This document shows positions 61,662 to 64,000 of a stretch of 64,000 nucleotides of DNA, in pieces. The position numbers and the translations under genes were made by a program. The DNA is from Bacillota bacterium. Lineage in GTDB: Bacteria > Bacillota > Clostridia > Peptostreptococcales > Anaerovoracaceae. How positions within the stretch are numbered: position 1 is the first letter of the stretch; each line of letters begins with the position of its first letter. Location of the stretch: NCBI GenBank assembly GCA_025361765.1, contig JANYJS010000083.1, forward strand, positions 1-64,000, written 5' to 3'. The notes beneath the pieces are model-generated. The model had not been told where the DNA came from and did no database searches. It saw nothing but the letters and a program-made list of their open reading frames with translations.

Positions 61662-62192
61662 ATGATGAAAAAAGAAGTGATTTTAGCCTGGACCAAGGAT
61701 ATTTTAATAGCTGTAGCAGTGGCCGTTGTTATACTCCAATTTATAAGGCCAACAATCGTGAAAGAGTATTCCATGATGGATACCCTTCATGAAAATGATT
61801 ATCTCATTGTCAGCAAGCAGGCTTATTTATTCGGCAAAGTGCAGTATGGAGACATTATTGTATTTAATACGAATCTCGAGACGACTAGTGGTGAAAAAAA
61901 ACGTCTAATTAAACGAGTGATCGGCCTTCCGGGAGATACCATCGAGATTAAAGACGGCAAAGTTTATAGAAATGAACAGCCGCTGACCGAAGACTACATT
62001 TTCGAGCAGTACACGTCTGGGCTTGTTAAACCCACGGTGATTCCGGAAGGAAAGATCTTCGTCATGGGGGATAATAGACAAAACAGCGCCGACAGCAGAG
62101 ATGAGCGCATTGGGATGGTGAATGAGAAGGCCATATATGGCGAAGCAGTACTCAGGCTCTATCCATTTAACAAGATAGGATTATTAAAATGA
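61662..62192 (+). CDS. lepB: Signal peptidase I (first of two), atypical box B
   Basis: Membrane-bound peptidase cleaving signal peptides outside the membrane. N-terminal membrane helix (about residues 12-30). Catalytic Ser is in EYSMMDTL near residue 37 and catalytic Lys in KRLIKRVIGLPGD near 82, with GDNRQNSADSRD near 145. The usual SMxPTL of box B reads SMMDTL here, so the Pro is replaced by Asp. 176 aa. A second ATG at 61665 is an alternative start. The stop overlaps the next signal peptidase gene by 4 nt. Confidence 0.9.
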   Translation: MMKKEVILAWTKDILIAVAVAVVILQFIRPTIVKEYSMMDTLHENDYLIVSKQAYLFGKVQYGDIIVFNTNLETTSGEKKRLIKRVIGLPGDTIEIKDGKVYRNEQPLTEDYIFEQYTSGLVKPTVIPEGKIFVMGDNRQNSADSRDERIGMVNEKAIYGEAVLRLYPFNKIGLLK

Positions 62193-62713
62193 AAAAAACC
62201 ATATTAGAATTTTTAAAAACCATGGTCATAGCCATTGCTATAGCGCTTTTGATTACCACATTCTTTAAACCAACATTGGTCAAAGGCTACTCCATGTACC
62301 CGACTATTGAGCCAAATAATTACCTGATTATCAACAAGATTCCCTATATGCAGGGGACACCGAACTACGGCGACATTATTGTTTTCAAGGCGCATATCGC
62401 AAATGAAGGTGGAGGGGAGAAAGATCTGATCAAGAGAGTCATCGGCCTTCCTGGAGACACGATTGAGGTTAAGGGCGACGTTGTCTACAGAAACGGCGAA
62501 GCCCTTGTGGAGCCTTACGTCTACGGTGGAGCGACTCCAGGAGACATGGGGAAAATAGTTGTCTCGGAAGGTCACCTTTTCGTGATGGGCGACAATAGAC
62601 CAGTCAGCCTTGACAGCAGAGATCCGAGCCTGGGAGAGATTGCCATCAATTCAGTCCTTGGGCAAGCGGCAATCCGGCTTTATCCTTTCGATGAAATTGG
62701 CACCATACAATAG
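62189..62713 (+). CDS. lepB: Signal peptidase I (second of two)
   Basis: Paralogue of the preceding gene, 174 aa. N-terminal membrane helix (about residues 9-28), catalytic Ser in GYSMYPTIEP near 36 (standard box B), catalytic Lys in KDLIKRVIGLPGD, and MGDNRPVSLDSRD. Both active-site residues are intact. ATGA overlap with the first copy shows translational coupling. Multiple signal peptidases are common in Bacillota. Division of labour between them cannot be read. Confidence 0.93.
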   Translation: MKKTILEFLKTMVIAIAIALLITTFFKPTLVKGYSMYPTIEPNNYLIINKIPYMQGTPNYGDIIVFKAHIANEGGGEKDLIKRVIGLPGDTIEVKGDVVYRNGEALVEPYVYGGATPGDMGKIVVSEGHLFVMGDNRPVSLDSRDPSLGEIAINSVLGQAAIRLYPFDEIGTIQ

Positions 62714-62847: not shown

Positions 62848-63318
62848 ATGGCACAAGGCAAAATATTAGCCAACAATAAAAAAGCAAGACACGATTATTT
62901 CATTGAAGACGTCTATGAGGCAGGAATCGTCCTGACTGGCACGGAAATCAAATCCATGCGACAGGGCAACGTGAATCTTAAGGACAGCTATGCCAAGGTC
63001 GTCGACAGTGAAATGATTATTTTTAATATGCACATTAGCCCTTATGACAAAGGGAATATTTATAATGTGGACCCTGTGAGGCCCAGAAAACTGCTTCTGC
63101 ATAAGAAGGAGATCAAAAAAATGCTGGGAGAAATCATGTTAAAAGGGTTGACTATTGTGCCCCTGAATGTTTATTTGAACGCAAAAGGGGTAGCTAAACT
63201 GGAGATGGCAGTGGCACGAGGCAAGAAGGATTACGACAAGAGAGATACCATTGCTAAAAAAGATGCGGATCGCAGGATGGCGCATCAGATGAAGGATTCC
63301 CGCCGAGGGGATTACTAA
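62848..63318 (+). CDS. smpB: SsrA-binding protein SmpB
   Basis: Binds tmRNA and brings it to stalled ribosomes. NNKKARHDYFIEDVYEAGIVLTGTEIKSMRQGNVNLKDSYAKV and the C-terminal basic tail KKDYDKRDTIAKKDADRRMAHQMKDSRR are typical. 156 aa. An AAAGGAAAT site precedes the ATG. The tmRNA gene starts 5 nt after its stop codon, so the two functionally linked genes probably share a transcript. Confidence 0.97.
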   Translation: MAQGKILANNKKARHDYFIEDVYEAGIVLTGTEIKSMRQGNVNLKDSYAKVVDSEMIIFNMHISPYDKGNIYNVDPVRPRKLLLHKKEIKKMLGEIMLKGLTIVPLNVYLNAKGVAKLEMAVARGKKDYDKRDTIAKKDADRRMAHQMKDSRRGDY

Positions 63319-63323
63319 ATTTT

Positions 63324-63930
63324 GGGGGTGTAAAGGTTTCGACGGGGGTGTTGAAGCCGGAGAAGCGAGCCGTTGCCACCGAGTCAACGTTAAAAGCGGT
63401 AACTTAAAGATAAACGCAAAAAATAATTACGCATTAGCTGCTTAGTTAGCAGCTCGTCCCCTAGGATTCACCTGTAGGTTTTAGCCAGGGCGTCAAATAT
63501 ACAGGAAAACTCCGTGTGAGCTCCTAGTAGCACGGGGGAATAATAGGATAGCTGAAAGTTAAGCCTGCTGACGGGCGTCTCAAGAAGCGAAACAAATAAA
63601 TCATCAGCTGCGCTCGGAGAAACTCCCGTGAATGTGCTTTCGGACGTGGGTTCGATTAGAAAATGGTCGCCTTGCCGTGTGAACGGCAAGTGACAATCCG
63701 GCTTGATCGGTGAAACCGTAACGTGAAGACGACGGCGATGCCGAGGAGTATGTGAAGTAATTCAACAGCTCTGTATCGACTTATAGGCATCCGATTTCGG
63801 ATGTACTAGGATGGAAGCTTCAAACGATATTATAGCTTTCATAATACGCCGGGGGACTTCGTAATTGAAGTTCAAGACATAGTCAGCACCATTGGAGACA
63901 ATGGAGAAATGTGTCCCACCACCTTCACCA
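63324..63930 (+). ncRNA. ssrA: Transfer-messenger RNA, interrupted by a group I intron
   Basis: Rescues stalled ribosomes and adds a degradation tag. The 5' acceptor strand GGGGGTG (63324-63330) pairs, with two G-U pairs, to CACCTTC (63920-63926), then A and CCA. GGTTTCGACGGG follows the 5' end as in other tmRNAs. The tag frame 63416-63445 encodes AKNNYALAA and stops at TAG. T-stem GTGGG (63646-63650) and T-loop TTCGAT are followed not by the 3' T-stem but by a 257-nt insert; CCCAC appears at 63915-63919. Joining 63656 to 63914 gives a 350-nt RNA with a perfect 5-bp T-stem and 7-nt loop. A search without an intron model would place the 3' end wrongly. Confidence 0.95.
63657..63913 (+). other. 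Group I self-splicing intron in the tmRNA T-loop
   Basis: P1: the 5' exon CGAT (63653-63656) pairs with GTCG of the guide GGTCG (63665-63669), with a U-G pair at the splice site. P2: CTTGCCG/CGGCAAG (63671-63677/63684-63690). P7: GACT (63778-63781) with AGTC in the conserved AAGACATAGTC (63874-63884). P3 candidate: CGGCG (63733-63737) with CGCCG (63847-63851). P9: CCATTG-GAGA-CAATGG (63889-63904), a GNRA-type loop. The intron ends in G (63913), as group I rules require. Hairpins CATCCG/CGGATG and GAAGCT/AGCTTTC between the P7 strands resemble P7.1/P7.2 of subgroup IA. No open frame, so no homing endonuclease. Confidence 0.9.
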
Positions 63931-63936
63931 CAAAAT

Positions 63937-63984
63937 AAAAGCCGCTCTGCAAAGAAAGAAATTTCTGAGCATGGCGGCTTTTTA
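63937..63984 (+). terminator. Terminator after tmRNA gene
   Basis: Arms AAAAGCCGC (63937-63945) and GCGGCTTTT (63974-63982) enclose a loop and end in a T-run, directly after the tmRNA CCA end. Confidence 0.8.
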
Positions 63985-64000
63985 CCTATATTTTATAAAA

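Follow-up and report, generated by a model that had tools for sequence, protein, structure and literature searches.

Intron-form tmRNA genes, reportedly described by Williams in 2002, raise the question of how their introns spread. The available extracts of PMC11915505 count 883 unique genes of this form in 21 phyla, most of them interrupted at position 7. Only 36 of the 883 introns (4.1%) hold an endonuclease gene, located in the P7.1 region or after P9, and it is a puzzle that introns so seldom equipped for mobility are found at the same few tmRNA bases across so many phyla. We analyzed a DNA stretch of 64,000 nucleotides, referred to here as the window, in which a tmRNA gene (ssrA) near the right end is interrupted in this manner; the contig itself extends beyond the window, to position 65858. 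An earlier note had described the insert as a group I intron in the T-loop, unusually complete and without an endonuclease.

In the window, the Rfam tmRNA model (RF00023) gave a match of 121.8 bits (E 1e-48) that stops at 63658, and ARAGORN detected no tmRNA in the whole window or in the unspliced sequence. When the exons were joined from 63656 to 63914, as the earlier note had proposed, ARAGORN returned a 350-nt tmRNA with the tag AKNNYALAA, in agreement with an insert of 257 nt. With the intron removed, the 7-bp acceptor, the tag frame, the T-arm and the CCA are all complete: the acceptor 5' strand is GGGGGTG (63324–63330), the 5' exon terminates in ...GTGGGTTCGAT at 63656, and the 3' exon reads T-CCCAC-CACCTTC-A-CCA. 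A match to the Rfam tmRNA_permuted model (29.6 bits, under the cut-off of 47) overlapped the standard tmRNA match and was rejected.

The tmRNA gene starts 5 bp after the end of smpB, which has one match in its own assembly (own-genome search). As the only tmRNA match above the Rfam cut-off in the assembly lies on the same contig as this single smpB, a foreign origin of the contig is unlikely. Both the tmRNA and smpB resemble clostridial ones. With one tmRNA match and one smpB in the assembly, it is fair to suppose that ribosome rescue in the host depends on self-splicing of the intron; the genome also contains an NFACT_N (RqcH-type) gene, which may provide a second rescue route. Upstream, at 61662–62713, is a tandem pair of similar ORFs overlapping by 4 bp, the second of which is signal peptidase I (TIGR02227) and the first of which resembles it.

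Table 1. Features of the interrupted tmRNA locus (window coordinates unless stated; helix counts are paired cells in the 17 introns of the window's order unless stated)
Feature	Coordinates	Strand	Evidence
smpB, tmRNA-binding protein	62848–63318	+	NCBIfam TIGR00086, 188.3 bits
tmRNA (ssrA) gene, interrupted	63324–63930	+	confirmed
tmRNA 5' exon, 333 nt: acceptor 5' strand, tag frame AKNNYALAA, T-arm 5' half	63324–63656	+	
P1: exon CGAU + intron UA with UGGUCG	63653–63669	+	102/102
Group I intron, 257 nt, T-loop position 7, no internal endonuclease ORF	63657–63913	+	RF00028, ORF list
P2	63671–63690	+	136/136; 6/8 pairs change on both sides
P3	63698–63852 (63698–63702/63848–63852)	+	85/85
P4	63707–63710/63741–63744	+	68/68
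P5	63716–63719/63732–63735	+	66/66
P6	63745–63748/63769–63772	+	68/68
P6a	63753–63756/63761–63764	+	68/68
P7, guanosine-site helix (GACU with AGUC)	63778–63884 (63778–63781/63881–63884)	+	68/68; 64/64 in the Pseudomonadota/Chloroflexota set
P7.1	63787–63793/63798–63804	+	106/119
P7.2	63811–63819/63834–63842	+	150/153
P8	63854–63873	+	110/111
P9, GAGA tetraloop	63889–63904	+	94/102
tmRNA 3' exon: T-loop nt 7, T-stem, acceptor 3' strand, encoded CCA	63914–63930	+	
Hairpin flanked by runs of A and T	63937–63982	.	fold of 63931–63995, -24.0 kcal/mol
Predicted free-standing LAGLIDADG homing endonuclease, 137 aa	63986–64399 of contig G000:C30 (63986–64000 in the window)	-	ORF L154:1987-2415

The insertion point, between TTCGAT and T, corresponds to T-loop position 7, a known subsite along with 2, 3 and 8, and the last nucleotide of the intron is G. 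The Rfam group I intron model (RF00028) matched 63647–63905 with 28.3 bits (E 7.4e-5), which is significant yet under the gathering score of 50; the model is weak for tmRNA introns of this family, one of five related intron-bearing loci matching at E 0.01. The folding energy of 63645–63925 had a z score of -4.98, none of 200 shuffles being equally good. Both results favour the group I intron of the earlier note, with the model score under the Rfam cut-off as a point against.

Helices were counted in an alignment of 33 introns, comprising the 17 introns of the window's order (window included) and 16 Pseudomonadota/Chloroflexota introns, with the long introns L025 and L064 left out. In the order introns (Table 1), 28 of the 68 pairs show base changes on both sides, and controls in which the 3' strand was moved by 1 to 3 positions were 0–76% paired. 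P7 is invariant, and its support therefore comes from conservation without covariation. A helix "P5a" at 63721–63731 was dropped, with 4 of 51 cells paired in the order introns. Among the matches listed, the 16 Pseudomonadota/Chloroflexota introns had P3, P4, P6 and P7 paired in all cells, followed by P5 (47/48), P2 (117/128), P7.2 (109/127) and P7.1 (88/112); P6a (20/50), P8 (70/107) and P9 (43/96) fit less well, P9 being 100% paired when slid, which reflects a shifted alignment register. Taking the window together with 18 Pseudomonadota/Chloroflexota introns (the matches listed), P3 was paired in 95/95 cells and the 5' splice pair, U63656-G63666 in P1 of the window, was U-G in 19/19. All the elements that the earlier note had named (the U-G pair, the terminal G, P2, P3, P7, P8 and the GAGA-capped P9) are thus present. 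Two additional helices of the window intron, P7.1 and P7.2, lie between P7 and P3; we take them to be marks of group I subgroup IA.

Empty sites were sought with the 5' exon in 20 relatives, 16 of which matched. The T-loop was read by script in 10 of these 16, the other six being unread, and was uninterrupted in 10/10. In G006, a member of the window's family, the sequence GGACGTGGGTTCGAT-TCCCACCACCTTCACCA (locus L138) is exactly the predicted spliced junction, with a 3' exon identical to that of the window directly after TTCGAT. Since the window's 3' exon is of this family-like type, any donor tract extending through the 3' exon must have come from a donor similar at that place, which is a point against the collaborative homing proposed below. 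Two genomes of one genus, G298 (with an intron of 344 nt) and G230 (without intron), share 97.3% identity along the 1387 bp that lead to the insertion point, and each contains a different endonuclease remnant (L168 and L161, respectively); they represent a natural pair for intron gain or loss.

The identification of the window intron as a group I intron in the T-loop of a tmRNA gene is supported by homology and structure as well as by the empty sites and the splice-site rules. Its class was, as the earlier note stated, already known. It shares with other introns of this class the insertion at T-loop position 7, a U at -1 and a terminal G, a length of a few hundred nucleotides and the usual lack of an internal endonuclease. 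It is not unusually complete: the 843 founding tmRNA introns average 293 bp (PMC11915505, in extract), and the window intron is an ordinary member of the class in this respect also. Neither does the missing endonuclease set it apart, given how few of the 883 introns hold one. The wording "without an endonuclease" is correct for the intron itself, but not for the locus, where a LAGLIDADG gene lying almost wholly beyond the window follows the tmRNA gene.

Of 393 genomes in the window's order, 17 (counting the window itself) showed the intron pattern. The other 16 belong to families f3, f9 and f11, the window being the sole intron-bearing genome of its own family. Because a DNA search for the intron in 196 other genomes of this family found none, the window's lineage has probably gained it from elsewhere; phage and plasmid records gave no DNA match to the intron region. 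Narrower patterns applied to the 393 genomes of the order and 391 genomes of the class matched the window alone, the former shutting out introns that begin with NC and the latter requiring a P1 strand absent from the order introns. Scanning of named genomes by pattern (at least 117 stretches), with a start-motif filter applied to the result, yielded at least 18 introns at the same position, fetched by the intron pattern alone and blind to the endonuclease gene; the 18 listed are labelled Pseudomonadota (17) and Anaerolineae (one bin, Chloroflexota). Locus L123 fitted the start pattern without having a 3' junction and was discarded. The window intron shares 72–84% identity with the 16 other order introns and 50–57% with 16 of the 18 listed Pseudomonadota/Chloroflexota introns (two long ones left out).

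The endonuclease gene is located 55 bp past the tmRNA CCA and is convergent with the tmRNA gene. It lies just past the hairpin of Table 1, which is likely a two-way terminator common to both genes, and starts with an ATG preceded by a GGAGGG ribosome-binding site. Its product matched Pfam LAGLIDADG_1 (25.5 bits, cut-off 23.1) with a single motif, YLAGIVDGEG. An AF2 model (pLDDT 92.9) had a best Foldseek E value of 4e-7 and aligned with I-CreI and I-MsoI (VIA-align) with a Z of 13.9 and an rmsd of 2.0–2.1 over 125 residues. The protein is thus predicted, from its sequence and model, to be an intact LAGLIDADG homing endonuclease of I-CreI-like fold, and its one motif leads us to expect that it acts as a homodimer. 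It is like I-CreI and I-MsoI in fold and in having one LAGLIDADG motif, but shares 18–21% identity with them and is free-standing, whereas they are intron-encoded. Residues Y10, A12, G13, D16 and G19, among others, are invariant in 14 aligned endonuclease sequences, and each of the 10 relatives scanned had a match to a LAGLIDADG family with an E value no higher than 0.001, above a curated cut-off in 7 cases. The dN/dS ratio was 0.10–0.18 in the 3 of 11 pairs with finite dS, a purifying-type divergence that counts as weak evidence because dS is near saturation. Beyond the endonuclease gene is an HTH_3 regulator gene (L154:2745-3041, contig 64744–65040).

An intron free of endonuclease and a free-standing endonuclease gene near the interrupted gene make up the anatomy of collaborative homing, which has been described for F-CphI and the cyanophage psbA intron (extracts of PMC6083498 and PMC3984707). 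The two systems are alike in that a group I intron is accompanied by a free-standing endonuclease gene adjoining the interrupted gene (PMC6083498, in extract). F-CphI, however, is of the Endo VII type, is encoded beside a phage protein gene and has been shown to cut (same extract), whereas the present enzyme is of the LAGLIDADG type, is encoded beside a cellular tmRNA gene in two distant bacterial groups, and is predicted to cut. We consider it rather probable, judging from sequence, that the tmRNA intron, presumably self-splicing, and the free-standing endonuclease constitute one mobile unit that spreads by collaborative homing.

The steps of such a process can be proposed as follows. By homology with other group I introns, guanosine bound at P7 would attack after U63656, held to G63666 in P1, and the freed 5' exon would then attack after G63913, releasing a normal 350-nt tmRNA. 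The enzyme would cut intron-less tmRNA genes at or near the T-loop, and repair of the break from the intron-bearing allele would copy a tract bringing in both the intron and the endonuclease gene. Once inserted, the intron would split the cut site and thereby protect the host; after fixation, the endonuclease gene would decay and the intron may be lost. A near-palindrome in the T-arm is a weak candidate for the target of a dimer, with 6/11 half-site matches, and is a point against collaborative homing.

The strongest reason to suppose that the free-standing enzyme targets the T-loop site, and hence would cut there, is that two viral contigs have an enzyme of this family within their tmRNA intron. 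The window protein alone, used as a query against viral contigs, gave no match. From a profile scan of IMG/VR, 80 of at least 398 confirmed loci were retained, and a script detected a tmRNA T-loop plus P7 in 2 of these 80, L190 and L195. Their T-loop introns, of 654 and 663 nt, each hold an antisense endonuclease gene, which as we read the sequences sits in the P7.2 region; in L195, the listed ORF starts upstream of the intron and the homologous part, from an inner ATG, is within it. The classification of both contigs as viral is that of IMG/VR, few neighbouring genes having PHROG matches. In phage records, most relatives of the endonuclease bear the annotation HNH endonuclease or hypothetical protein, and plasmid records contained no relatives.

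Association of the two elements was also seen in cellular genomes. Among the order introns, 9/17 have an endonuclease gene or remnant nearby, in all cases on the strand opposite to the tmRNA gene: intact in the window, G204, G243, G251 and G292, broken in G215, and reduced to remnants in G280, G298 and G284. Contig G204:C39 (L183) is most likely misbinned, since over 2303 bp it is 100% identical to G500:C35 (L267), from a genome of another order in the class; a reading as the end of a tmRNA gene displaced by an island was given up on this account. G204 has an intact tmRNA gene as well (following region listed for ORFs). The order count without G204 is 8/16, window included. The remaining 8/17 introns have no endonuclease in the adjoining stretch, which is a point against collaborative homing. 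In G251, a second fragment of the endonuclease family (C77:33703–33858) is present about 4.6 kb from the intact copy. In locus L184 (G215:C103:1-3000), an intact intron-free tmRNA gene is followed about 240 bp on (T-loop to T-loop) by a second tmRNA 3' end, which has the intron and an endonuclease gene with a broken frame; it looks as though the 3' half of the tmRNA gene had been replaced by an incoming copy.

A whole-genome protein search of the 393 order genomes found the endonuclease in 9, namely 8 with the intron pattern plus G230, so that 1 of the 376 genomes without the pattern has an endonuclease, and this one is a C-terminal remnant beside an intron-free tmRNA gene. The order-wide Fisher test gave P values of 1.6e-11 (all 393) and 3.4e-10 (without G204), in which kinship is ignored, the genomes counted not being phylogenetically independent. 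In the class, 10 of 204 genomes searched have the endonuclease, window included; among the nine others, 5 copies adjoin an intron-bearing tmRNA gene, that of G498 is decayed and stands beside a standard tmRNA gene, and no tmRNA was seen in 3 (G582, G618 and G628). The remnants adjoining intron-free tmRNA genes in G230 and G498 are a further point against collaborative homing, as are the three class genomes in which no tmRNA was seen with the endonuclease. In G628, a short stretch nearby may be a tmRNA 3' end. In G582:C30 (L268), the endonuclease relative is full (match to 1905) and near a contig end, and is directly followed on the other strand by a group II intron match (RF00029, 1908–1979).

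In the Pseudomonadota/Chloroflexota set, 12 of the 18 listed introns are followed by an endonuclease relative or part of one, starting 52–191 nt past the CCA; two of these copies run off the end of the locus, and a third is partial. Among the matches listed, the gene is on the same strand as the tmRNA gene in 12/12. The difference in strand between the two groups counts against collaborative homing as one unit, since intron and gene may have been paired on separate occasions, unless the gene was inverted. The other 6/18 have no endonuclease in the adjoining stretch (in L036, none in the 806 bp after the 3' junction), which again speaks against collaborative homing. In L117, the Anaerolineae bin, the tmRNA intron and the endonuclease fall among those of Pseudomonadota, as would result from transfer or misbinning.

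In phylogenetic trees, the order introns formed one group (support 100/99, window included), and the Pseudomonadota/Chloroflexota introns (matches listed) formed two, of 10 and 8 rows, the tree being unrooted. The enzymes of the window's order and class formed one group (97/97), those of the Pseudomonadota/Chloroflexota set (matches listed) one weakly supported group (85/90), and the two viral intronic enzymes a third (100/99). These trees are compatible with joint descent of intron and enzyme in the window's group, short of proof.

Several of these observations would also fit a self-splicing resident intron and an unrelated endonuclease that is a parasite of the tmRNA 3' flank (intronless homing), both favouring tmRNA genes: i) endonuclease remnants stand beside the intron-free tmRNA genes of G230 and G498, ii) 8/17 order introns are without endonuclease, iii) the strand of the gene differs between the order and the Pseudomonadota/Chloroflexota set, and iv) the intron and enzyme trees of the latter set are not clearly alike. 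We find this account doubtful, since intron and endonuclease co-occur strongly, though in a test that ignores kinship, the viral introns with the same enzyme family inside tie the enzyme to the insertion site, and the intron-bearing partner of G230 in the same genus also has a remnant. It appears improbable that the intron was fixed long ago, is vertically inherited and is immobile now, with the endonuclease as a relic; introns are present in four families of the order, but there is no DNA match in the 196 other genomes of the window's family and the pattern occurs in no other member of it, while the window endonuclease reads open and its divergence is of the purifying type in the few measurable pairs. 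That the neighbouring protein is an intron maturase (splicing helper) is very unlikely, for although LAGLIDADG maturases exist, with the bI3 maturase and the bifunctional I-AniI among the fold matches, and the gene is kept near the intron, many related introns have no such gene or wrecked copies alone, and for a tmRNA intron of Clostridium botulinum self-splicing is listed as demonstrated (PMC2729099, in extract).

Collaborative homing of intron and endonuclease as one unit is therefore the reading that we retain. On a broader scale, about 96% of tmRNA introns are counted as free of an endonuclease (PMC11915505, in extract), and the chances seem about even that they are mobilized by a dedicated LAGLIDADG family, whose genes lie just next to the tmRNA gene in cellular genomes and within the intron in those of phages. 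This would be a widespread system of collaborative homing, moving between distant bacteria and partly by phage.

An endonuclease gene beside a tmRNA gene was not reported among the literature matches listed (titles and starts of abstracts), and the available portions of PMC11915505, PMC3984707, PMC2729099, PMC1995217, PMC13153191 and PMC6083498 report no collaborative homing of tmRNA introns. The words "downstream", "adjacent" and "free-standing" are absent from the main text of PMC11915505 as available, and the LAGLIDADG gene just outside the tmRNA gene is what distinguishes the present locus from the intron-form tmRNA genes published there. While the intron itself is of a known kind, the intron together with an outside endonuclease would be a new form of collaborative homing, provided that the enzyme cuts.

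The linked free-standing endonuclease offers a testable answer to the question of how such introns spread. If this answer is correct, collaborative homing, described for protein genes of phages, would also operate on an RNA gene of cells. The natural stages found here, with intact, broken and remnant endonuclease genes and with the intron lost, provide material for studying the life cycle of homing.
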